A stretch of DNA of 38,725 nt from Candidatus Alkanophaga volatiphilum (GTDB lineage Archaea > Halobacteriota > Syntropharchaeia > Alkanophagales > B39-G2). Below the pieces are notes generated by a model. It saw nothing but the letters and a program-made list of their open reading frames with translations. It was not told the DNA's origin and did not search any database. Positions within the stretch are counted from its first letter, which is position 1; every line of letters starts with the position of its first letter. The stretch is from NCBI GenBank assembly GCA_029259545.1, contig JAPHEE010000011.1, forward strand, positions 16,039-54,763, written 5' to 3'. Positions 3,061 to 27,763 of the stretch are shown here, in pieces. A program made the position numbers and the translations under genes.

Positions 3061-3849
3061 TTAAGGTTTTTCTTTCTTCTCCACGAGTTTCGGGTCGAGT
3101 CCGCCTTTGACGTGCATCTCGAAGATCCTGCCCGTTACCTCCCAGAGTTCCTTCGCTTCCCTGTACGGTATGGTGTCCAGCCCGTAAACTATGGACTTTT
3201 TCAGCAGGACATCCTCAGGCAGTGGCTTCCCCACTGAGACCGGCGTGTCCATCGGAACCGCCATCTGGTCCTTCGTGTACACTACCTCACCCCGCTCCTT
3301 ATCGAAGTAGTAGCGGCGGCGGGCGTCGAACATGAGGCCGTTCTCGTCGAGACGAAGAGCGGAGCCGTGCACGGTGATTCCACGAATCGCTGTCCTCGCA
3401 GGGTCGAAAAGTTCCGTTTCCAGCAGCTCCTTGGAGTATTTCTCCAGATCCCGCTCACGTGCCTCCATCAATTCTCTTCCCGAATATGTGATGGTGTCGA
3501 TGCCCCGGTAGCGTACATGATACATCCTGCCTCGGAATATCGGAGTTAAAGGTGAGTGATAGACCGAGTCCGTAAACTGTATGTAACGTATGCGGTCGCC
3601 GTGTCTTGCGCCGTCGGTCGGCGGCACGAGCTCTCTTATCGGGTCTTCCGGCAGCTTCAGCTCGTCCAAGCTCGGATGCAGTGAGCTGTACTTCTCGCCG
3701 GGCGCCCTGTGCCCCAGCAGCCGTACCAGATCTTCGTCAGGGATCTCCCTTAGCTTCTCGAACTTGCTCTTCGGGTCGAGGATGAAGCGCCGCCGCTCCG
3801 CAACACGATCATCTCCTGGGTACAGGTTTGGCGACGGCTTTTCCGTCAT
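3061..3849 (-). CDS. mcrG: Methyl/alkyl-coenzyme M reductase gamma subunit
   Basis: A 262-aa protein, close to the usual McrG length (about 250-265). It has the family landmarks GHRAPGEKYSSLHPSLDEL (about residues 46-64), GARHGDRIRYIQFTDSVY (about 80-97), YSGRELMEARERDLEKYSKE (about 122-141) and LRLDENGLMFDARRRYYFD (about 165-184). The gamma subunit helps to form the F430 pocket of the (alpha-beta-gamma)2 nickel enzyme. It is third in a tight mcrB-mcrA-mcrG operon. The ATG follows the mcrA stop by 4 bp, and the mcrA TGA is embedded in this gene's Shine-Dalgarno GAGGTGA. Classical methanogen operons run mcrB-D-C-G-A, so both the gene order and the absence of mcrC and mcrD differ. Confidence 0.93.
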   Translation of the reverse strand: MTEKPSPNLYPGDDRVAERRRFILDPKSKFEKLREIPDEDLVRLLGHRAPGEKYSSLHPSLDELKLPEDPIRELVPPTDGARHGDRIRYIQFTDSVYHSPLTPIFRGRMYHVRYRGIDTITYSGRELMEARERDLEKYSKELLETELFDPARTAIRGITVHGSALRLDENGLMFDARRRYYFDKERGEVVYTKDQMAVPMDTPVSVGKPLPEDVLLKKSIVYGLDTIPYREAKELWEVTGRIFEMHVKGGLDPKLVEKKEKP

Positions 3850-3853
3850 GGGA

Positions 3854-5518
3854 TCACCTCGCCGGCTTTATCAGGTCGCGCTCGCCCTCCGGCATGAACT
3901 CACGAAGCGCACCCCTCGCAACCTCCGCTCTTATCCTCTTGAAGTCAAAGGGCAGGCTTGAATCCGCAAATGCCCCCTTCACCACCGGGCTCAGAACCCA
4001 AGGGTCGCCACGAGCTGCGTGCGCCGAAAACACGGATGAGGGCTCTATTGCCATTATCAGCGCTGACGTCGAGTCCTGCGGCATGTTCGCACCCCGTAGC
4101 TCTGGCACTAAGCCCTCGTCTGGACGGACCGATGCCGCGTACGCTATGCTTATGTGGTCGACGGAGTCGCCAGAGCCGAAGCCAGCACGCCCCCACGCCT
4201 CCTTGCCGACGAACGCCTGCGTGTAGTGCAGCGCGAGGTGCGCCGCCAGCGAGTGCCCGGTTGCGAGACCGACGCCGACAGCCGCCGTGGACTGAAGCAT
4301 CCCGAAGCGGATGGCGCCGCCCCAATGCGACTCCAGCAGCAGCGGATACCTGTTGTACTGCTCAAGGATGTAGAAGACCGCCTCCTCAGTGACGTCCCTC
4401 ACGACGTCAAACGACGGCTTCGCCTGCGCAAAGCCCCCGTACTTGTCTTTTACATAATCGGCAATGTGCTGGTAGAAGTCGTCGAGGACGCCATCGCTGC
4501 AGAAATAGGCGACCGCCGAGGCGCCGACGCCGCCGATGACATAGTTGTTCACCCATATGGAGATGTAGTAGAAGCCAGCGAGGGCGGAGGCTTCTGCACA
4601 ATAGCGGACAGGATCGTCGGTGAGCGCATCCGTCTGACAAATGTCGCCGATGTAACCGTAGGGCAGCCCGCCGGGCTCGTTGTCCTTTGGTCCCCTGCGG
4701 GGCCACGTCGGCGTCGCCAGCAACACATATTGCATGTGTTTCGCGGTGAGCGAGAAGTCAGCAAGAACGGAGCCGCCGCCGAGCTTGTAAGCGACGATGA
4801 ACGCGAGCGCGCTCTGATTTGCGTTCCAGCGCCTTGTTATCCCACCATCACCTATTCGGACGGCAATCGTCGGGATTCTCGTTACCTGATAAATATGCCT
4901 ACCAATACCCTCCTTCACCTTTTCAGCCCTCTCTTCAGGATACTCACGGTTTAAGTTTATTAGGAACTGCGGATCTATGTGCGCAGCCAGTTCGTCGTCG
5001 CCGGTGAGAATCTTAACAGAGGTATCCTTCACAAGTCCGGGATGAACCTCAGCCATGTGTTCTTGAGCGACTGCGCCGCCACACATCGCATGGTTTGCCA
5101 CCTCTAGATACCTGTTTATCGTCTCAGGCGTCACGGAGACGCCGAACCTGTTCTGGAGGATCATGTGCGCCATGTCGAGCCCTAGGATGGCAGTCCGCCT
5201 TATGTCATCAGCCATCTGTTGTATCGCTGCGTTGTTTATCTGATGGAAGTCATCATACTCGCAGATAACATCCGTTCCTGTGATGTTGAAATTTTCAAGG
5301 AGCCGTTGTCCTAAAGGCACGCCGCCGATCTCATCTTCACGCTCCCGCTGGTAGCCCACAATCCCGCGCTCTGCCGCTAATTTCCTCGAAAACTCTACGA
5401 ACTCCGTCTTACGCTTGGACTGCCGCCAGCCACCCAGATCGTAAAACTTCGTGCGTCTTTTTGTGGCGTCCTCCTCGCCAAAAGCCTTCTTCAACCTCTC
5501 AACCACTTCCCCCCTCAT
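3854..5518 (-). CDS. mcrA: Methyl/alkyl-coenzyme M reductase alpha subunit, divergent
   Basis: A 554-aa protein, the catalytic subunit of the nickel F430 enzyme that forms or cleaves methyl-CoM or alkyl-CoM. Conserved landmarks are NNAAIQQMADDIRRT (95-109, containing the F430-ligand glutamine), TPETINRYLEVANHAM (130-145), TAKHMQYV (His261, the methyl-histidine position), NEPGGLPYGYIGDICQ (280-295), a Tyr326 equivalent to the active-site tyrosine 333, and the C-terminal ARGALREFMPEGERDLI. Positions that differ from methanogen McrA, by my eye alignment to M. marburgensis numbering: Phe330 is Val323, Gln400 is Ile403, and the GFYGYDLQDQCG block is GFGSGDSVDHIS (446-457). In that block Tyr444 becomes Gly, thioglycine-445 aligns with Ser449, and Cys452 becomes Ile. 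A larger pocket for a multicarbon substrate is an inference. The ATG has a GGGGGTGTGA Shine-Dalgarno and lies 1 bp after mcrB. Confidence 0.93.
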   Translation of the reverse strand: MRGEVVERLKKAFGEEDATKRRTKFYDLGGWRQSKRKTEFVEFSRKLAAERGIVGYQREREDEIGGVPLGQRLLENFNITGTDVICEYDDFHQINNAAIQQMADDIRRTAILGLDMAHMILQNRFGVSVTPETINRYLEVANHAMCGGAVAQEHMAEVHPGLVKDTSVKILTGDDELAAHIDPQFLINLNREYPEERAEKVKEGIGRHIYQVTRIPTIAVRIGDGGITRRWNANQSALAFIVAYKLGGGSVLADFSLTAKHMQYVLLATPTWPRRGPKDNEPGGLPYGYIGDICQTDALTDDPVRYCAEASALAGFYYISIWVNNYVIGGVGASAVAYFCSDGVLDDFYQHIADYVKDKYGGFAQAKPSFDVVRDVTEEAVFYILEQYNRYPLLLESHWGGAIRFGMLQSTAAVGVGLATGHSLAAHLALHYTQAFVGKEAWGRAGFGSGDSVDHISIAYAASVRPDEGLVPELRGANMPQDSTSALIMAIEPSSVFSAHAARGDPWVLSPVVKGAFADSSLPFDFKRIRAEVARGALREFMPEGERDLIKPAR

Positions 5519-5519
5519 T

Positions 5520-6848
5520 TCACACCCCCATCTCCGCCGCCGCTAGCGCTATGCTTTCAAGCGGGCGGTGGAACTCCGGCAGCACCTTCCTAATCTTGAA
5601 AATCTTGCCGGAAGTCATCTCCGGCGAATAAATCTGCGTTCCCGCGTCCAAACAGACGGCAGCACACGCACACGGTATTATAAAGCCCTTAGATGCCCTC
5701 GTGACGACGTGTTCGCCCGACATTATACCCGGGGCGCCGCCGCCGTAGGTGGCGTGCGTCAGCCACTCGTAAGTGATGGCGGTGCCGAGCGCCCTGCCGA
5801 AGTCCACCGACGGCAGCCCGGTCTGCATCTCCAGCAAGTCGTTGTAGAAAAGCATGGCAGATGGCGCACTCTGAACCGCCCTCGACGCACCGACGCTTTG
5901 AATAGTTGCTGCGAGTAGCCCGGCGGCGGCATACGCATTCCAGAGGGCGGCATCCTTCGGCGCATAAACCTTAAAGCCCGACGGCAGCTCCTTCTCCACG
6001 AATATCACGCCGTCTTCCAACGCCCTCTTCACCACCGCCTCGACGATGTCCACAAGCGTTCCTCTACCATGCTCCCTCACAAGCTCATAAACCATATTCT
6101 CGCCGTTCAGTCCTTGATACCCAAAACCAAGGAGCTGGAAGCGCTCGTAAGATCCCAAAGCGTTTCCAGATTCAAATGCGGCGGCGTGTTCCAGCGCCGC
6201 AGCTATGGCAACCGCATCAAATGTTCTTTTACCGGCGAGCGCCACTATGGTATTTATCGTTGGGCTCCTGTAGGCGACGCCCATCGTCTCAAGCTTTGTC
6301 GGGAACGCAAGCAACGCAGAAACGGCGCCGCCCGGCGAGACCGTCTGCGGATACCTGCCGAGGAGCGCTGCTTTCAGCATGTCCACACCGTCGAAGATGC
6401 CAAGCCCGAAAATCTTGATGATCGCATATGCGACTGCTGCTGCCGTCACCAGATAGGTCTGCGAGTAGTCAGCCGCCATTTCAACGCGGGCTCTCGGCAG
6501 CTGGACGATGAGAGAAGCGTCAAGAATTTTGACATCGGTATCGTCGTCCTCCTCCACTTTTATCATCTTCTTAACCTCGTCAGCAATCGCCCCTATGTTC
6601 TCGACGAGAGGTAGGTCCAGCTCTCTGCCGAGAATCTTACACTCACAGCCGATCGCCATCGTGCCCCCGACGCTTGCCGCCCTCAAAGAATCCTCAATTT
6701 TTTTCACATCCACGATCGCGGTCCGCTTCAGGCAATAAAGCATTTTCCTAATAGCTACGTTCTTCAGCGGGCTTATCGCACTCAGGGGAACTTTCTCGGC
6801 AAGTAGCTTGCCCCTGTCATCATAGATACTTACCCTGTCCTCTTCCAT
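5520..6848 (-). CDS. mcrB: Methyl/alkyl-coenzyme M reductase beta subunit, divergent
   Basis: A 442-aa protein from the ATG at 6848. The start reads MEEDRVSIYDDRGKLLAEKV, matching the typical McrB start VDIYDDRGKLLE; a TTG four codons upstream (6860) is less likely. Conserved features are PGGAVSALLAFPTK (about 172-185), AMLFYNDLLEMQTGLPSVDF (about 331-350), the YGGGAPGIMSGEHVVTR block (about 368-384) and GTQIYSPEMTSG. The tyrosine equivalent to beta-Tyr367 is kept (Tyr368). The preceding aromatic pair, Phe361-Phe362 in methanogens, is Trp362-Leu363 here, again altering the pocket wall. It is the first gene of the mcrBAG operon. The lipid reductase gene upstream ends 62 bp away on the same strand, so read-through is possible. 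I see no clear A-box in that gap. Confidence 0.93.
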   Translation of the reverse strand: MEEDRVSIYDDRGKLLAEKVPLSAISPLKNVAIRKMLYCLKRTAIVDVKKIEDSLRAASVGGTMAIGCECKILGRELDLPLVENIGAIADEVKKMIKVEEDDDTDVKILDASLIVQLPRARVEMAADYSQTYLVTAAAVAYAIIKIFGLGIFDGVDMLKAALLGRYPQTVSPGGAVSALLAFPTKLETMGVAYRSPTINTIVALAGKRTFDAVAIAAALEHAAAFESGNALGSYERFQLLGFGYQGLNGENMVYELVREHGRGTLVDIVEAVVKRALEDGVIFVEKELPSGFKVYAPKDAALWNAYAAAGLLAATIQSVGASRAVQSAPSAMLFYNDLLEMQTGLPSVDFGRALGTAITYEWLTHATYGGGAPGIMSGEHVVTRASKGFIIPCACAAVCLDAGTQIYSPEMTSGKIFKIRKVLPEFHRPLESIALAAAEMGV

Positions 6849-6910
6849 TGATTTAAACAAATGTTCATTATCTTATTAGCCTTTTTCCTCGAGCGTTTTG
6901 TCCGAGCGAG

Positions 6911-17269: not shown

Positions 17270-18142
17270 CTACTTCCTCCTCTGCTGAAACTTTAATAGC
17301 GCTACGCCCTCCGGGGTCACGCTCACGAAGTTTTCGTCTCTTTTCACGAGCTTCACGCTCTCCAGAACGCTTAAATGGTAGTTCAAATCCTTGTCGGGGA
17401 GCTTAAGCGTCTCTTTAAGTTCATCAAGCGAGGCGCCGCCGACCTCCCATAGCAGCGTCAGTAGATTCCTTCTTGTTTTGTTGCTCGCCACCTTCAGCAA
17501 AAGCCTGAGGGCGTGCGGTGGAATTTCCGTCCCTGCAGCTTCCAGCCAAGGTTTTGACACCTTCCACGCAATCTTGTGGACGATTGGCGGCTCCGGGTAT
17601 GCTCCGGGGTCGTAGAGCACGTAGCCGTCGAACCTCGTCGGCGTCTCTTGGTAGCAGCAGCGAACCGCCTCCGCAACCTTTCGAGGGTCGGTGCAGCCTA
17701 TCAAGTCAACGACGCTCACCTGCTTCCTGAAACGCTCGACGAGCTCCGGCGGAAGGTTATAAAGGTAGGGCGTCGGCGCCCCCGTCCCGACGATCCGCTT
17801 GTTCTCGTCAACGCCGTTTTCGACGAGCGCCTTCAAAGCCTCCCCCGGCAGGTGACCGGGGGACTCCTCGCCGCAAATCACGATATAGCGGATGTTGGGG
17901 TTTGCGACCACGTTGCACACGATCTTTTCGATGCCGACGTTCTCCGTCTGCAACGTTCCTGCGAGGGCGGCGCCGGCATCCAAGGCGCTCATCACCAGCG
18001 CCTCCACTTCAGGCGGGGTTGCGAGGTCGAAGGTCGCCAGAATGACGACGACAGCCGCCGGCGAGTAATCATTCCCCCTGACGTAACGCCCCTCCTCCGG
18101 CGGGTACTCCGCCGGCGGCTTGACCTTCCTCATCCACTCCAC
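17270..18142 (-). CDS. MtrA-like corrinoid-domain protein fused to a winged-helix DNA-binding domain
   Basis: A 290-aa two-domain protein. Residues about 5-170 match MtrA, the cobamide-binding subunit of the Na+-translocating methyl-H4MPT:CoM methyltransferase: YSPAAVVVILATF, GTLQTENVGIEKIVCNVVAN, PNIRYIVICGEESPGHLPGE and ENGVDENKRIVG. His97 in SPGHLPG corresponds to the KGH histidine that I take to be the cobalt ligand in canonical MtrA. The canonical C-terminal membrane helix is absent. Instead residues about 215-285 form an ArsR-like winged helix (NKTRRNLLTLLWEVGGASLD, LKLPDKDLNYHLSVLESVKL, VTPEGVALLKF). No other mtr gene is in the window. A corrinoid- or methyl-sensing transcription regulator is inferred. 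An A-box (AATTATTTAAATGG, near 18160-18172) implies a nearly leaderless start, so GTG 18142 or ATG 18133 are both possible. Confidence 0.85.
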   Translation of the reverse strand: MEWMRKVKPPAEYPPEEGRYVRGNDYSPAAVVVILATFDLATPPEVEALVMSALDAGAALAGTLQTENVGIEKIVCNVVANPNIRYIVICGEESPGHLPGEALKALVENGVDENKRIVGTGAPTPYLYNLPPELVERFRKQVSVVDLIGCTDPRKVAEAVRCCYQETPTRFDGYVLYDPGAYPEPPIVHKIAWKVSKPWLEAAGTEIPPHALRLLLKVASNKTRRNLLTLLWEVGGASLDELKETLKLPDKDLNYHLSVLESVKLVKRDENFVSVTPEGVALLKFQQRRK

Positions 18143-22264: not shown

Positions 22265-22906
22265 ATGATAGCGTCGGCGTTGCAGTCCGCAATCTACGTG
22301 GTTTCGACATCTCTCCTGTACCCGGTAGTCGTTCTCTTGCTTTTTCTCGTCGCATGGGTCGCCGTCGAGCTCGGCGGCTTCCTCTATGAGCTTTTTTCGA
22401 GATTTCGCTCGCCGAACAGGCTTGAGAGCGGCATAACCGACGCGATGACCGCAGAAAGTCGTAGCGACGCCGTGAGACGGGTTTTGGACTCGGCATCCAG
22501 TCGCATGCTCCACGAGTTCCTCAAAGACCTTCTGCGTCTCGTCGAGAGCGGCGGCGGGGGCGATGAGAAATTGCCGGTGCGTGTCGAGAAGCTTCTTCAG
22601 GACTATGAGCTGCTGGCGGCGAAGCGGCTCGAAAGGACGAGAATCCTCGTGCGCATCGGTCCCATGCTGGGGCTCATGGGCACGCTCATCCCGATGGGTC
22701 CGGCGCTCCTCGCACTCACGCACGGCGACGTCCAAACGCTGGCGAACAACCTGATAATAGCCTTCGGCACGACCGTCGTCGGGCTCCTCGTCGGCGGCGT
22801 CGCCTTCGTGATCTCGACGATCAGAGAGCGTTGGTACTCGCAAGACCTGAGCGACATGGCGTACGTTTGTGAGATGCTGTTCGGAGGAGTGGGGGAACCC
22901 GTCTAA
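22265..22906 (+). CDS. MotA/TolQ/ExbB proton-channel family protein
   Basis: A 213-aa membrane protein. One hydrophobic segment near the N-terminus (about 17-42, YPVVVLLLFLVAWVAVELGG) is followed by a charged cytoplasmic region (about 45-125), then the conserved channel pair: IGPMLGLMGTLIPMGPALLAL (about 131-151) and LIIAFGTTVVGLLVGGVAFVI (about 163-183). In the family these helices form a proton channel that energises another protein. The neighbour at 23103-23501 (DUF2149) is the likely ExbD/TolR-like partner. The target of the energy transfer is not evident here. Confidence 0.85.
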   Translation: MIASALQSAIYVVSTSLLYPVVVLLLFLVAWVAVELGGFLYELFSRFRSPNRLESGITDAMTAESRSDAVRRVLDSASSRMLHEFLKDLLRLVESGGGGDEKLPVRVEKLLQDYELLAAKRLERTRILVRIGPMLGLMGTLIPMGPALLALTHGDVQTLANNLIIAFGTTVVGLLVGGVAFVISTIRERWYSQDLSDMAYVCEMLFGGVGEPV

Positions 22907-23102: not shown

Positions 23103-23501
23103 ATGAAACTGAGATACATGCGACGGCGCAGCAGGGGCGGCGTGGGCGGCGGGCATCGCCTCGGAGCGAGGGCGCTTGAGGCTGCGGCTGCGGAGGGCGA
23201 CCCGCTGAGCGGCGTCGCAAACCTGTTCGACGTTGCGATGGTCTTCGCTCTCGGCTTGCTGGTTATGATTCTCCTCTATTACGGGCTTTCCGAGCTTCTG
23301 ACGGAGAGCAACCTCACGATAGTAAAGAATCCGGGGCAGAAGAACATGGAGGTCATCATAAAGGAGGGCAGGGAGATAAAGCGGCTGAACGCCTCGGAAG
23401 AGTTGATACAGACAGAGGTGGTGGCGGAGGTCGGCAGAATCTACAGGACCAAGGACGGCAGCCTGATATACGTGCCTGCGAACGTCAGCGTCGCCCCTTA
23501 G
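23103..23501 (+). CDS. DUF2149 protein (putative ExbD-like partner)
   Basis: A 132-aa protein: an arginine-rich N-terminus, then DPLSGVANLFDVAMVFALGL (about 33-52), the DUF2149 hallmark leading into a single membrane helix (about 42-65), then an extracytoplasmic beta/alpha domain to the end. DUF2149 genes typically accompany MotA/ExbB-type genes in methanogens and relatives. The start is uncertain: ATG 23103 is used and ATG 23118 is possible. A 196-bp gap separates it from the ExbB-like gene, with no recognisable gene apart from a doubtful 40-codon frame at 22930. Confidence 0.78.
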   Translation: MKLRYMRRRSRGGVGGGHRLGARALEAAAAEGDPLSGVANLFDVAMVFALGLLVMILLYYGLSELLTESNLTIVKNPGQKNMEVIIKEGREIKRLNASEELIQTEVVAEVGRIYRTKDGSLIYVPANVSVAP

Positions 23502-23555
23502 ACGTGCTGTGCGGCGCCGCACGCCAGATTTTTATGCAAAGATGGTGTAAAAAAC

Positions 23556-24668
23556 ATGATGCTCGAACGGGTGCGAGAGGTTTTAGACGGTAGGGAGGCG
23601 GTTGCGAGGAGCTGGAAGGAGCAGGGCAAGAAGGTCGTGGGCTGGATATGCCCCTACGTTCCTGAAGAGCTGATACATGCGGCGGGCATGCTGCCGTTCA
23701 GGGTCATGGGCGCCCCTGTGACGATTGTGAAGGGCGACGCCTACCTATACCCGAACATCTGCACTTTCAACAGGGTCGTGCTCGAACTCGCATTAGGCGG
23801 GCGTTACGACTTCCTCGACGGCATCGTCACCGCAAACGTCTGCGACCACATCCGCAGGCTCTACGATGCTTGGCATTTCTTCGTGGAAACCCCGTTCAAA
23901 CTGATATTGAGCCTCCCGCACAAGGTCTCGGAAAACGCCGTCGCCTTCTTCAGGGATGAACTTTCGAGGCTCAAAAGTGATCTTGAAAAGCTCGCCGGCG
24001 TCGAAATTTCCGACGCCGCCTTGAAGAACTCGATAAGAACGTACAACAGAGCAAGGGAGCTGCTCCGCCGAATATACGGGCTGAGGCGTGAGGAAGAGGC
24101 GCCGATCTCCGGCGCCGAGGCGCTGGAGGTGGTCAAAGCCGGGATGTTCCTGCCGAAGGAGGAGTATGTAGCTTTACTGGAGGAGATTTTCGAAAGCCTG
24201 AAACGCCGGGATGAACGCTACGAGGGCAGTGCGAGGGTCATGATCGCCGGCAGCGACCTCGACGACCCCGGATTTGTAAAACTTATAGAGGACTCAGGCG
24301 GCTTGGTCGTGGCTGACGACCTCTGTACTGGCAGCCGCTACTTCTGGGAGGACGTCGACGTCAGCGGCGACCCCTTGGAGGCGCTCGCAAGACGCTACCT
24401 CAGCCCCGTGCTCTGCGCCCGCATGCACCCCTACGAGGCGCACATCGAGCATCTGATAAAAATGGCTGAAGATTTCAACGTCGACGGCATAATATTCGAG
24501 GCTTTGAAGTTCTGCGACATTTACGGCGGCGAGTACCCGCTGCTTCGGGAGTGGCTGAAGGAGAAAGGTTTAGACATCCCGGTCCTTATGCTTGATCGGG
24601 AGTACGTGCTGAGCGGCGTGGAGCAGCTGAAAACCCGAATACAAGCCTTCATAGAAAGTTTGAGCTAG
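23556..24668 (+). CDS. BcrC/HgdB-like subunit of a benzoyl-CoA reductase / 2-hydroxyacyl-CoA dehydratase-type enzyme
   Basis: A 370-aa protein of the 2-hydroxyacyl-CoA dehydratase D-component family. The N-terminal domain has WICPYVPEELIHAAGMLPFR (30-49, Cys32), NICTFNRVVLELALG (67-81, Cys69) and ANVCDHIRRLYDAW (93-106, Cys96), the three cysteines placed as in cluster-binding subunits. The C-terminal Rossmann-like half has SDLDDPGFVKLIEDSGG and the late EALKFCDIYGGEYPLLRE. It is the first gene of a five-gene operon in the order C-B-A-D-ferredoxin, matching bacterial bcrCBAD. The start is the ATG at 23556 with GATGGTG upstream. Substrate is unknown: benzoyl-CoA, a related aromatic acyl-CoA, or a 2-hydroxyacyl-CoA are all possible. 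Confidence 0.85.
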   Translation: MMLERVREVLDGREAVARSWKEQGKKVVGWICPYVPEELIHAAGMLPFRVMGAPVTIVKGDAYLYPNICTFNRVVLELALGGRYDFLDGIVTANVCDHIRRLYDAWHFFVETPFKLILSLPHKVSENAVAFFRDELSRLKSDLEKLAGVEISDAALKNSIRTYNRARELLRRIYGLRREEEAPISGAEALEVVKAGMFLPKEEYVALLEEIFESLKRRDERYEGSARVMIAGSDLDDPGFVKLIEDSGGLVVADDLCTGSRYFWEDVDVSGDPLEALARRYLSPVLCARMHPYEAHIEHLIKMAEDFNVDGIIFEALKFCDIYGGEYPLLREWLKEKGLDIPVLMLDREYVLSGVEQLKTRIQAFIESLS

Positions 24669-24679
24669 GGGGTGATGAG

Positions 24680-25870
24680 TTGGCGGCTGCGATCCCGCAA
24701 ATAGATTCCGTGGTCCAGAAACGCTATATGGAGCTTGTAGCCAATTTCTTCAAAAGCGCATTCGATGCAAGGAACGTCGGGAAGAAGGTCGTCTGGATGG
24801 CGTATTTCCTGCCGTCAGAGCTTTGTTACACTTTAGATGCCGTACCGTTCTACCCTGAGATCTACGGCGGCGTCTGCGCACGAATGGGCATCGTCCTCAA
24901 GTACATAGAGGCTGCTGAGAGCTTCGGCTATCCTCGAGAGCTGTGCTCCGCAACGAAGTCCGCCGCCGGGCTTGCGCTCTCAGGGGAGGCGCCGCCGCCT
25001 GACGCCGTCCTGAGCACGCAGCCGGTATGCGACGGCGGCATGAAGGTTCATGAGTTCGTCGCCGTCCGCTATAAATGCCCACATTTCTTTATCGATATGC
25101 CTTACTCCACCGATGCACGAGCGGTCGAATACTTGAAGGGCGAGCTTGAAGAAGCCCTTAAATTCCTTGCCGAGTCCTTCGGAGCGGAGTTGAGCGAGGA
25201 GCGCTTGAAAGAAGTCATGGAACTTTCGAAGCGTGCCGAGGAGCTGCATCTGGAAGTTAACGAGCTTAGAAGGAAGAAGCCTTCCCCCCTCCTCAGCATA
25301 GAGCTTTTCGGTCAGTACTTCTTCCCGTGCAGCTTCCTCGGTGGTACGCAGGCAGCCGTTGACTTCTATGCGTTCGTCGCGGAGGAGGCGAGGCGCCGCC
25401 TCAGAGAGGGGGACGTGCCTGAGGAGAAATACAGGATTCTATGGTCGCCGCTCGTCCCGCAAAGCTTCCTGAGCATCCTTCAATGGCTTGAGCTCGAGTA
25501 CAAAGCTAAGATCGTCATGGAGATGGTGGGCTACGCCCCGAAGATCGAGATGGATGCGGCGGAGCCGCTGGAAAGTCTTGCGAGGAAGACGCTCGAAGCG
25601 AGGTTCCCGTCTCTTGGGAACGGTCCAGGCGTGTTTAATCTCGATAGATATCGCAAAGTGGTGAAGGATTACGACATCGACGCTGTGATCTACTTTGCGC
25701 ACTGGGGCTGTCGGACGATATGCAGTGCCGTCAAAATGGTTAAGGACATGCTCAGGGAGGAGTTTGACATCCCGATGCTCGTGCTCGATGGCGACATCTT
25801 CGACCCGAGGAACAACCCTGTGGAGCAGGCGCGGGCGAGGGTTGAAGAGTTCTTTGAAATGCTGGAATGA
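24680..25870 (+). CDS. BcrB/HgdA-like subunit of the same complex
   Basis: A 396-aa paralogue of the first gene's family. Cysteines at 49 (SELCYTLDAVPFYPE), 66 (GGVCARMG), 89 (YPRELCSATKSAAG) and 117 (QPVCDGGMKVHE) are placed as in BcrB-type subunits. The C-terminal half ends with DIDAVIYFAHWGCRTICSAV and PMLVLDGDIFDPRN, typical of the catalytic heterodimer. The start codon is TTG (24680) preceded by GGTGAT, 11 bp after the previous stop. Together with the 23556 product it would form the [4Fe-4S] module that receives electrons from the ATP-driven activator. Confidence 0.85.
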   Translation: MAAAIPQIDSVVQKRYMELVANFFKSAFDARNVGKKVVWMAYFLPSELCYTLDAVPFYPEIYGGVCARMGIVLKYIEAAESFGYPRELCSATKSAAGLALSGEAPPPDAVLSTQPVCDGGMKVHEFVAVRYKCPHFFIDMPYSTDARAVEYLKGELEEALKFLAESFGAELSEERLKEVMELSKRAEELHLEVNELRRKKPSPLLSIELFGQYFFPCSFLGGTQAAVDFYAFVAEEARRRLREGDVPEEKYRILWSPLVPQSFLSILQWLELEYKAKIVMEMVGYAPKIEMDAAEPLESLARKTLEARFPSLGNGPGVFNLDRYRKVVKDYDIDAVIYFAHWGCRTICSAVKMVKDMLREEFDIPMLVLDGDIFDPRNNPVEQARARVEEFFEMLE

Positions 25871-25880
25871 GGTGTGTGGG

Positions 25881-26675
25881 ATGATCGTCGCTGGCGTTGA
25901 TATTGGCTCGCTGACGGTCAAAGCCGTCATATTGAGGGACAACGAAGTCGTGGCGACCTCGACGCTCATCACTGGCGACGACGCCGCCACCGCTGCAAAG
26001 ACGGCAATAAATGAAGCGTTGAAAAGCCTAGCTGAGCGGGGTATGAGCGTGACGCTAGACTCCTTAGACCACATCGTGGCGACGGGCGTCGGCAGAAAGG
26101 AGGTCACGTTCGCACACGAGGAAAAGACGGATGTACGTTGCGACGCCGTCGGCGCACGCCACATATTTCCGTCGGTGAGGACCGTCGTGGACATCGGCGC
26201 CGAGAGCTGTAAGGTCATAAGGCTTAGCAAGAAAGGCAGGGTGGAGGATTTCACCGCTAATGACAAATGTGCATCCGGCACAGGAATGTTCCTCGACGTG
26301 CTCGCGAAGGTCATCGGTGTTGGCGTCGAAAAACTCGGCGAGCTCTCGCTGAAAGCCAAAAAACCCGCGAAAATCAGCAGCATGTGCACGGTCTTCGCCG
26401 AGTCTGAAGTTATTTCCTATATCCACAGGAAGGTTCCGATCGAAAACATTATTGCTGGAGTCCACGAGTCCATAGCTAACAGGATATTCGGGATGATGAA
26501 CAGAGTAGGCGTAGAAAAGGACATAGCGCTCGTGGGCGGCGTTGCAAGGAACGTCGGCGTTGTCAAGGCGCTCGAAGCGAAAGTTGGCGAGAGTATTCTG
26601 GTGCCTGAGGGGCCGCAACTCATCGGTGCCCTTGGCGCCGCTTTAATAGCTGCGGAAGCGTGTGGTACTGCATGA
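25881..26675 (+). CDS. BcrA/BadF/HgdC-type ATPase activator subunit 1
   Basis: A 264-aa ASKHA-fold ATPase. VAGVDIGSLTVKAVIL (phosphate 1 loop) opens the chain. VVDIGAESCKVI (about 102-113) is the second phosphate loop. FTANDKCASGTGMFLDVL (Cys130) and ISSMCTVFAESEV (Cys169) carry the cysteines that hold a subunit-bridging [4Fe-4S] cluster in this family. ALVGGVARNVGVV is the adenosine motif. The enzyme uses ATP hydrolysis to push electrons to very low potential. It starts at the ATG at 25881 with GGTGTGTGGG upstream, 10 bp after the B-like gene; upstream codons in frame belong to the other gene's shadow. Confidence 0.9.
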   Translation: MIVAGVDIGSLTVKAVILRDNEVVATSTLITGDDAATAAKTAINEALKSLAERGMSVTLDSLDHIVATGVGRKEVTFAHEEKTDVRCDAVGARHIFPSVRTVVDIGAESCKVIRLSKKGRVEDFTANDKCASGTGMFLDVLAKVIGVGVEKLGELSLKAKKPAKISSMCTVFAESEVISYIHRKVPIENIIAGVHESIANRIFGMMNRVGVEKDIALVGGVARNVGVVKALEAKVGESILVPEGPQLIGALGAALIAAEACGTA

Positions 26676-26693
26676 TGATGGGAGGTGGCGTGC

Positions 26694-27482
26694 GTGGTGC
26701 TCGTCGCCGGCGTTGATATCGGCTCGCTGACCGCAAAAGCGCTGATCTTGGAAGATTCGAAAATACGAGCATATGCCATAATACCAACTGGCGTTGACAG
26801 CGAAGAGACCTCCAAGAAAGTAATGAACATCGCCCTTGAAAAAGCGGAACTCAGGCTCGAAGATATAGAATATGTGGTCTCGACAGGCTACGGGCGTGTC
26901 GTAGTTCCGTTTGCAAACAAGAATATAACGGAGATCTCTTGCCATGCGAAGGGCGCCGTCTTCCTGTTTCCGTCGGTGCGCACGATCCTCGACATGGGCG
27001 GGCAGGATTGTAAGGCTATACGCTGCGACGCCTCCGGAAAGGTGCTGAACTTCGCAATGAACGACAAGTGCGCTGCAGGTACAGGACGCTTCTTCGAAAT
27101 AATGGCAGAAACTATGGAGCTGCCGCTCGAAGAGCTGGGAAGGCTCTCGCTCGAAGCGACAGATGCCGCGAAAATAAGTTCGGCGTGCGTCGTCTTTGCG
27201 AAATCCGAGGTCTTGACGCTACTGCGGAGGGGCGTCGACAAAAAGAACATACTTGCAGGCATAAACGAGGCTGTAGCCCTTAGGGTTTTCGCCCTTTTGA
27301 ACAGAGTAGGCATCGAAAAGGATTTCGCAATCACTGGTGGCATTGCGAAGAACATCGGCGTCGTGCGGAAAGTTGAGGAGAAAGTCGGACTGAAGGCTTT
27401 AATCGCAGAGGAGCCGCAGATCGTCGGCGCCCTTGGCGCTGCGCTCTTTGCAAAAGAGGCGTTAGAGCAGGTTAAAAAGTGA
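26694..27482 (+). CDS. BcrD/BadG/HgdC-type ATPase activator subunit 2
   Basis: A 262-aa paralogue of the preceding protein: VLVAGVDIGSLTAKALIL, LDMGGQDCKAIRC, NFAMNDKCAAGTGRFFEIMA (Cys126), ISSACVVFAKSEV (Cys165) and FAITGGIAKNIGVV. Having two different activator subunits, rather than one homodimer, is the mark of BCR-type complexes (BcrAD) and distinguishes this operon from simple dehydratase activators. The GTG at 26694 is preferred because GGAGGTG (26681-26687) is 6 nt upstream; a GTG at 26685 overlaps that site. The gap to the previous gene is 18 bp. Confidence 0.9.
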   Translation: MVLVAGVDIGSLTAKALILEDSKIRAYAIIPTGVDSEETSKKVMNIALEKAELRLEDIEYVVSTGYGRVVVPFANKNITEISCHAKGAVFLFPSVRTILDMGGQDCKAIRCDASGKVLNFAMNDKCAAGTGRFFEIMAETMELPLEELGRLSLEATDAAKISSACVVFAKSEVLTLLRRGVDKKNILAGINEAVALRVFALLNRVGIEKDFAITGGIAKNIGVVRKVEEKVGLKALIAEEPQIVGALGAALFAKEALEQVKK

Positions 27483-27499
27483 GAGGCTGGTGAAACAGC

Positions 27500-27763
27500 T
27501 TGATAATACATTACGGCTACGCTGACGGTTCCGGCGAATATTATTTGATTGTTGACACGGACAAATGTGACGGCTGCGGGCGCTGCGTCGAGGTCTGTCC
27601 GAACGACATACTCGAACTAGCCCCTGACGACTACGGGAAGGTTGTCGTACGTGTTAAGGACGAGTTCGTGAACAGTATCGGTTACATCTGCCCTGCCTGC
27701 AAGAGACGTGACGAGCGTTGCGAGAACGTCTGCGAGCACGCTGCTATTTCTTACTCGTGGTAA
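27500..27763 (+). CDS. Ferredoxin-like protein of the BCR-like operon
   Basis: An 87-aa protein. The first cluster motif is CDGCGRCVEVCP (about 24-35). A second set of cysteines is spaced irregularly: CPACKRRDERCENVCEH (about 64-80), so the second cluster is atypical compared with ordinary 2[4Fe-4S] ferredoxins. It ends the operon, 17 bp after the D-like gene. The TTG start at 27500 has GGTGA 6 nt upstream. In aromatic degraders a ferredoxin encoded beside bcr genes is the electron donor, and the same role is inferred here. Confidence 0.85.
   Translation: MIIHYGYADGSGEYYLIVDTDKCDGCGRCVEVCPNDILELAPDDYGKVVVRVKDEFVNSIGYICPACKRRDERCENVCEHAAISYSW

Follow-up and report, generated by a model that had tools for sequence, protein, structure and literature searches.

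What does an archaeon with an Mcr-like alkane-activating enzyme do with genes laid out like those of a benzoyl-CoA reductase? The question is raised by a locus of Candidatus Alkanophaga volatiphilum within a 38,725 nt stretch of contig JAPHEE010000011.1 (GCA_029259545.1), which was analysed as a whole and is called the window hereafter; positions are counted from its start. At 23556–27763 on the + strand, five open reading frames (ORFs) form a tight operon with intergenic gaps of 1–17 nt. An initial annotation, made from the sequence, had likened the set to bacterial bcrCBAD and had proposed either aromatic-CoA reduction or a novel low-potential acyl-CoA reaction downstream of alkane activation as its function. 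We find that the operon is real, conserved and complete, and that it is of a known kind, the benzoyl-CoA reductase/2-hydroxyacyl-CoA dehydratase (BCR/HAD) family, in an uncharacterised branch. It probably encodes an ATP-driven, low-potential iron-sulfur reductase of BZD-type build that does not act on benzoyl-CoA, its substrate more likely being a fatty-type or unusual acyl-CoA tied to acyl-chain metabolism. The five genes are as follows.

23556..24668, + strand: subunit C (370 aa), a BzdN-like member of the HGD-D family, predicted to carry the [8Fe-9S] double cubane (Pfam, PDB match, cysteines, AlphaFold2 (AF2) model)
24680..25870, + strand: subunit B (396 aa), also of the HGD-D family, predicted to be catalytic and to carry one [4Fe-4S] cluster (Pfam, residues, AF2 model)
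25872..26675, + strand: activator A1, a D-x-G-A-E-type ASKHA ATPase (TIGR00241, 250 bits; motifs)
26685..27482, + strand: activator A2, a BzdQ-like, DMGGQDCK-type ASKHA ATPase (TIGR03192; motifs)
27500..27763, + strand: ferredoxin Fdx (87 aa), the likely source of electrons for the activators (Fer4, 1.5e-9)

A conserved five-gene set with the cysteines, fold and activators of a BZD-type reductase

The Pfam E-values (HGD-D 1e-102 for C and 1e-68 for B, BcrAD_BadFG 5e-54 and 2e-62 for the activators, and Fer4 as above) are too low for the five-gene set to be a matter of chance. The same genes, with order and strand kept, are present in 'Candidatus Alkanophagales archaeon B39_G2' (QMVQ01000062.1, locus L020), whose C and B share 87% and 88% identity, respectively, with the window proteins. 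The gene content read initially thus holds for all five ORFs.

In the 2025 structure of BzdNO, BzdN binds an [8Fe-9S] double cubane through six cysteines, and BzdO carries the catalytic [4Fe-4S]-OH2 cluster on three cysteines, Glu65 and His131 lying beside its open site (PMC11971306). Subunit C retains all six double-cubane cysteines of BzdN and of the double-cubane cluster protein DCCP (Cys32, 69, 96, 257, 287 and 320), the pattern being CCCCCC in C versus PCCACC in HadC; with cysteines at positions 32 and 257, C does not have the HadC-type [4Fe-5S] set. From the same six, HadC is missing two and MbdN three. The best PDB sequence match of C is BzdN of Aromatoleum sp. CIB (8s02_B, 220 bits), which is also the best match of its AF2 model (mean predicted confidence, pLDDT, 93; template-modelling (TM) score 0.95, 1.6 Å). 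Subunit B retains Cys89, 117 and 344, with Glu60 at the position of Glu65 and Trp40 at that of Trp46 of BzdO. Its sequence matches HadB (87 bits) and BzdO (85 bits), and its AF2 model (pLDDT 91) resembles the two about equally (TM 0.85–0.88). Identity to BzdNO in the structural alignments is about 33% for C and 21% for B.

The two cysteine motifs noticed at the outset, DKCAxGTG and CxVFAxSEV, are borne out in both activators, as NDKCASGTG and CTVFAESEV in A1 (start codon GTG 25872 or ATG 25881) and as NDKCAAGTG and CVVFAKSEV in A2. The two are otherwise unlike, A1 having the signature D-I-G-A-E-S and A2 D-M-G-G-Q-D-C-K, with 273 bits to the BzdQ model TIGR03192, under its cut-off of 380. Dehalococcoidia share this asymmetric GAE/GGQDCK pair, as do Asgard archaea, Thermoplasmata and Aminicenantes in their Bzd-clade operons. 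The GGQDS/C-K type occurs as the single activator of DCCP-type loci and of a HAD-like locus in the organism's own genome, and the activators beside Mbd-type subunits in locus L091 do not belong to the GAE type. A2 is fused to a Fer4 domain in several Dehalococcoidia, as seen by Pfam in L029 and by similarity in L027, L034, L036, L043, L049 and L054. Because the activator pair is that of Bzd-clade operons and a ferredoxin lies downstream, the bzdNOPQ-M layout is a closer comparison than bcrCBAD; the architecture of the initial likening stands, with the model system changed. Taken together, the six cysteines, the BzdN fold, the residues kept in B and the activator pair argue for the build of a BZD-type reductase and not of a 2-hydroxyacyl-CoA dehydratase.

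All the parts for an ATP-driven multi-electron reduction are present, and we infer their working mode from BzdNO. Ferredoxin would pass electrons to the A1/A2 pair, where ATP hydrolysis would drive them onto the double-cubane cluster in C, able to hold at least two; C would hand them on to B, whose open-site [4Fe-4S] cluster would reduce the bound acyl thioester, with Glu60 as the putative proton donor. Both clusters would then be occupied as in BzdNO, and the enzyme would run in the reductive direction.

Placement in the BCR/HAD family and the alternatives it leaves

In trees of C (110 and 45 rows) the Bzd proteins form one clade (100/100) and the Had/Mbd proteins another (99/97). Window C falls in a third, whose 20-row set has support of 98/94, closest to Nitrospinae proteins of 46–49% identity. 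Approximately unbiased (AU) tests rejected a grouping of C with the Bzd clade (p=0.0013) and with the Had/Mbd clade (p=0.0015), both p values being somewhat optimistic because the groups were labelled after the first tree. The B tree agrees, so that C and B represent a third, uncharacterised clade of the family. Firm clustering with the hydroxyacyl-CoA dehydratases, named in the initial annotation as the outcome that would tell against it, is therefore not what the C and B phylogeny gave; neither do the subunits group with Bzd. The closest relatives come from bacteria, and C finds no match among the ANME-1-like order-mates, which suggests that the operon may have been acquired from bacteria. 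The labels ANME-1 (some fifty order-mates), Syntrophoarchaeum (G055 and G057), Archaeoglobaceae (f10) and Methanoliparia (f12) used here are inferred from placement and gene content.

The family models agree in placing the proteins outside the named enzymes. Scores lie under all NCBIfam equivalog cut-offs for Bcr/Bzd (BzdN 218/454, BcrC 201/421, BcrB 77/487, BzdO 72/449 and BzdQ 273/380 bits) and for HadB and HadC (198.5/700 and 122.7/750 bits).

Could the operon nevertheless encode a true aromatic-CoA reductase, acting on benzoyl-CoA or on one of its ring-substituted or polycyclic relatives, for the aromatics of an oil-rich habitat? The BZD-type architecture, the double-cubane cysteines, the activator pair and the Glu and Trp of BzdO conserved in B would all suit such an enzyme, and the family includes several aromatic-CoA reductases. 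One of them, the 3-methylbenzoyl-CoA reductase MbdONPQ (PDB 9g87, 9gai), shares the four-gene ATP-driven architecture, although MbdN, with three of the six cysteines missing, groups with HadC. Against this stand the position of C outside the Bzd clade, the model scores, and the loss from B of His131, Tyr97 and Gln274 of BzdO. Genuine archaeal Bzd-clade operons also differ in layout, running GNAT-C-B-A1-A2-Fdx-oxidoreductase. Finally, no lower pathway was found in the organism's own genome (G000; 1.85 Mb, 88% complete), in which genome-wide checks were run as family searches. The initial annotation had proposed looking there for dch, oah and had, and the outcome was negative: the best match to had reached 20.7 bits against a cut-off of 338.65, and all five enoyl-CoA hydratases proved to be of a generic kind, with dch and oah absent from the best 25 families of each. 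A benzoyl-CoA pathway was accordingly set aside, since a search for had and across all crotonases gave no recognisable dch, had or oah. The literature search returned no papers on Alkanophagales with benzoyl-CoA. By phylogeny, model cut-offs and missing pathway the operon does not belong with the benzoyl-CoA reductases; aromatic degradation is not supported beyond the architecture, and we regard an aromatic substrate as unlikely. The aromatic half of the initial proposal is weakened, and the reductase-like machinery fits its other half, a novel acyl-CoA reaction, better.

Less likely again is a DCCP-like double-cubane enzyme that reduces a small molecule or a cofactor and has no part in acyl-CoA metabolism. 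The six-cysteine signature is common to C and DCCP/DCCP-R (PDB 6eno, 7yyl), among NCBIfam models C scores best with NF040772 double_cubane (241.8 bits, under the cut-off of 350), and DCCP_6eno shares a broader clade with C (99/96), on a long branch that makes its placement uncertain. DCCP, however, is a homodimer with one double cubane per monomer (PMC11971306), and DCCP-type loci have a single activator type, whereas the window encodes two different subunits, B with three cluster cysteines only, and an unlike activator pair.

A 2-hydroxyacyl-CoA dehydratase, in which ATP only primes a recycling electron, ranks below both and seems improbable to us. It would share its fold, two-subunit core and three-cysteine catalytic subunit with (R)-2-hydroxyisocaproyl-CoA dehydratase (HadBC/HadI, PDB 3o3m), B is about equally near HadB and BzdO, and His131 of BzdO is absent from B as it is from HadB, which has alanine there (PMC11971306). 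But C holds the six-cysteine set that HadC lacks, the window has two unlike activators where HAD enzymes have one homodimeric activator, and a common clade with Had/Mbd is rejected; on cysteines, activators and phylogeny the operon does not belong with this group. Moreover, the genome already has a dehydratase-like system on contig C6, which makes a duplicate role for the window operon less likely. There, genes for a short-chain dehydrogenase/reductase (SDR), for HadC-like (PCCYCC) and HadB-like subunits and for a single activator form one cluster, with AOR and acyl-CoA synthetase genes near and another acrA several kb away.

Two further observations concern contig C6. Beside YcaO and acrA are ORFs of 384 and 152 aa (L005:2447-3601 and 3602-4060, both - strand) that match nothing in Pfam or NCBIfam; the larger is conserved in B39_G2 (L138:10955-12094). 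An acyl-CoA synthetase gene of the ADP-forming type (L005:6301-8292) is split by a TnpB-like insertion and is intact in B39_G2 (L138:8925-10346).

Substrate clues and a possible link to alkane activation

Since no pathway gene adjoins the operon in the window, any inference on the substrate rests on distant relatives. Third-clade Dehalococcoidia have the order C-B-A1-A2, often with the ferredoxin fused to A2, and their neighbours include PlsX, DegV, FakA, MaoC, FabG-like SDR and FabF-like genes. PlsX follows the gene set in six loci (L031, L034, L040, L043, L049 and L054), of which L054 continues with MaoC-like, PlsX, SDR, FabF-like, SDR and DegV genes; in others DegV or FakA lies near. FakA, DegV (fatty-acid binding, FakB-like) and PlsX handle fatty acyl phosphates. 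Within the BCR/HAD family itself, PlsA/Ger reduce lipid esters to ethers (PMC10191378, PMC13274423). By description, they share with the window operon the family machinery, ASKHA activation domains and, as substrates, acyl esters of lipids, and differ in that PlsA-type activation domains lie inside one polypeptide while the window has separate ORFs. The Dehalococcoidia neighbours and the PlsA/Ger precedent favour an acyl-chain substrate, though they are suggestive only, because the Nitrospinae, Desulfovibrio, Sporomusa and Archaeoglobaceae relatives have different neighbours and point to no one shared class.

Several other points weigh against a non-benzoyl, acyl-CoA-reducing enzyme. The Dehalococcoidia relatives are distant (C 42–44%, B about 28–30% identity). 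Subunit B has Gly, Ala and Leu where BzdO has His131, Tyr97 and Gln274; the loss of His131 is only partly diagnostic, as MbdO likewise lacks it, but Tyr97 and Gln274 are thioester contacts, and their loss, with the long stem of the two Alkanophaga proteins in the B tree, means that binding of a CoA ester by B is not certain. The 88% completeness of the genome also leaves a small opening on the absence of the aromatic pathway.

Related subunits occur in two further settings. One is a recurring operon (L140:1841-13094, L143:2289-11396) of two acyl-CoA dehydrogenases, a protein of 430–490 aa with no known function, C, one or two B, two activators, another such protein and a CooC-like ATPase, common to G056, the Archaeoglobaceae-like genomes and Syntrophaceae/Deltaproteobacteria. 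The other is in the Methanoliparia-like genomes, whose HGD-D proteins are of another clade and in one case stand beside a B12-dependent mutase: in G081 (L141:5909-11283), HGD-D C-B-activator genes adjoin large and small subunits like methylmalonyl-CoA mutase and beta-oxidation genes, and one cluster cysteine of the C subunit is replaced by Asp.

The Mcr-like enzyme of the initial annotation is confirmed by acr (alkyl-coenzyme M (CoM) reductase) BAG genes at 3061–6860 on the - strand; the alpha subunit scores 578 bits, under the 768-bit Mcr cut-off. Three acrA copies are found in the genome, as reported for Ca. Alkanophaga, whose route from alkyl-CoM to acyl-CoA was called unknown (PMC10322722). 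The four class genomes with a third-clade C (G000, B39_G2 (G001), G053 and G056) all have acr-like genes. Conversely, no HGD-D was found in the Syntrophoarchaeum-like G055 and G057, which have four acr copies, and no mcr or acr in four Archaeoglobaceae-like genomes that encode third-clade C proteins. The Syntrophoarchaeum-like genomes led us to reject a general role for the operon in converting alkyl-CoM; a direct alkyl-CoM role of the operon is unlikely, and its link to alkane activation is circumstantial. We give only a slight chance to the idea that this branch of the ester-to-ether family of PlsA/Ger acts on the thioether or thioester carbon of the activated alkane, or repairs non-terminally activated chains.

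Least probable of all, and very much so, is an accessory low-potential electron source for the (re)activation of alkyl-CoM reductase, for which one may cite the acr genes in the same window and the ties of ASKHA-fold activators to Mcr biology, including a methanogenesis-marker-15-like ASKHA beside acr on contig C2, and against which stand McrC and marker 3, both present above cut-off and both parts of the usual Mcr activation machinery, the four acr loci without HGD-D in Syntrophoarchaeum-like genomes, the ANME-1-like genomes without a C match, and the four Archaeoglobaceae-like genomes tested that have a third-clade C and no mcr or acr. With that machinery already in the genome, Acr activation by the operon was discarded. 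The gene of the contig C2 protein (L153:10790-12010) is transcribed divergently from the adjoining acrBGA, the Pfam domain of the protein having been tested and its marker-15 likeness judged by eye; a second, similar protein is on contig C22 (L154:3073-4377). The 'yjiL' placed beside acr in PMC10322722 is probably the contig C2 protein or the contig C6 activator, and not part of the window operon.

Start of the operon, upstream genes and significance

Three further features lie upstream of subunit C.

22265..22906, + strand: MotA/TolQ/ExbB-family protein (PF01618, 1.3e-9)
23103..23501, + strand: DUF2149 protein, directly upstream of C (PF09919, 8.7e-27)
23529..23536, + strand: TTTTTATG, a TATA-like element of archaeal type, 27 nt ahead of the C start codon (ATG)

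A TATA-like element, TTTTTTATA, likewise precedes C in B39_G2, 29 nt before the ATG; both were recognised from sequence only. As such an element precedes C in the two species, transcription of the operon probably starts at C. A seven-gene operon with the ExbB-like and DUF2149 genes was rejected, since the element between DUF2149 and C in both argues for separate transcription, which we consider probable for the two upstream genes. At the equivalent place B39_G2 has a DUF2149-like remnant, apparently frame-shifted, and no papers were found on DUF2149 in methanogens. Elsewhere in the window (17270–18142, - strand), an MtrA-like domain is fused to a C-terminal helix-turn-helix domain, possibly as a regulator sensing a methanopterin- or corrinoid-linked state.

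Double-cubane enzymes generate some of the most powerful reductants in biology, and substrates are known for only a few of them. The third clade to which the window operon belongs is a large unstudied branch, spread over Nitrospinae, Dehalococcoidia, Deltaproteobacteria and archaea, and the operon offers a member with a complete set of electron-delivery genes in an organism that grows in enrichment culture on defined alkanes. Finally, 'bcr' calls in alkane-oxidising archaea, often taken as aromatic degradation, should not rest on gene order alone.

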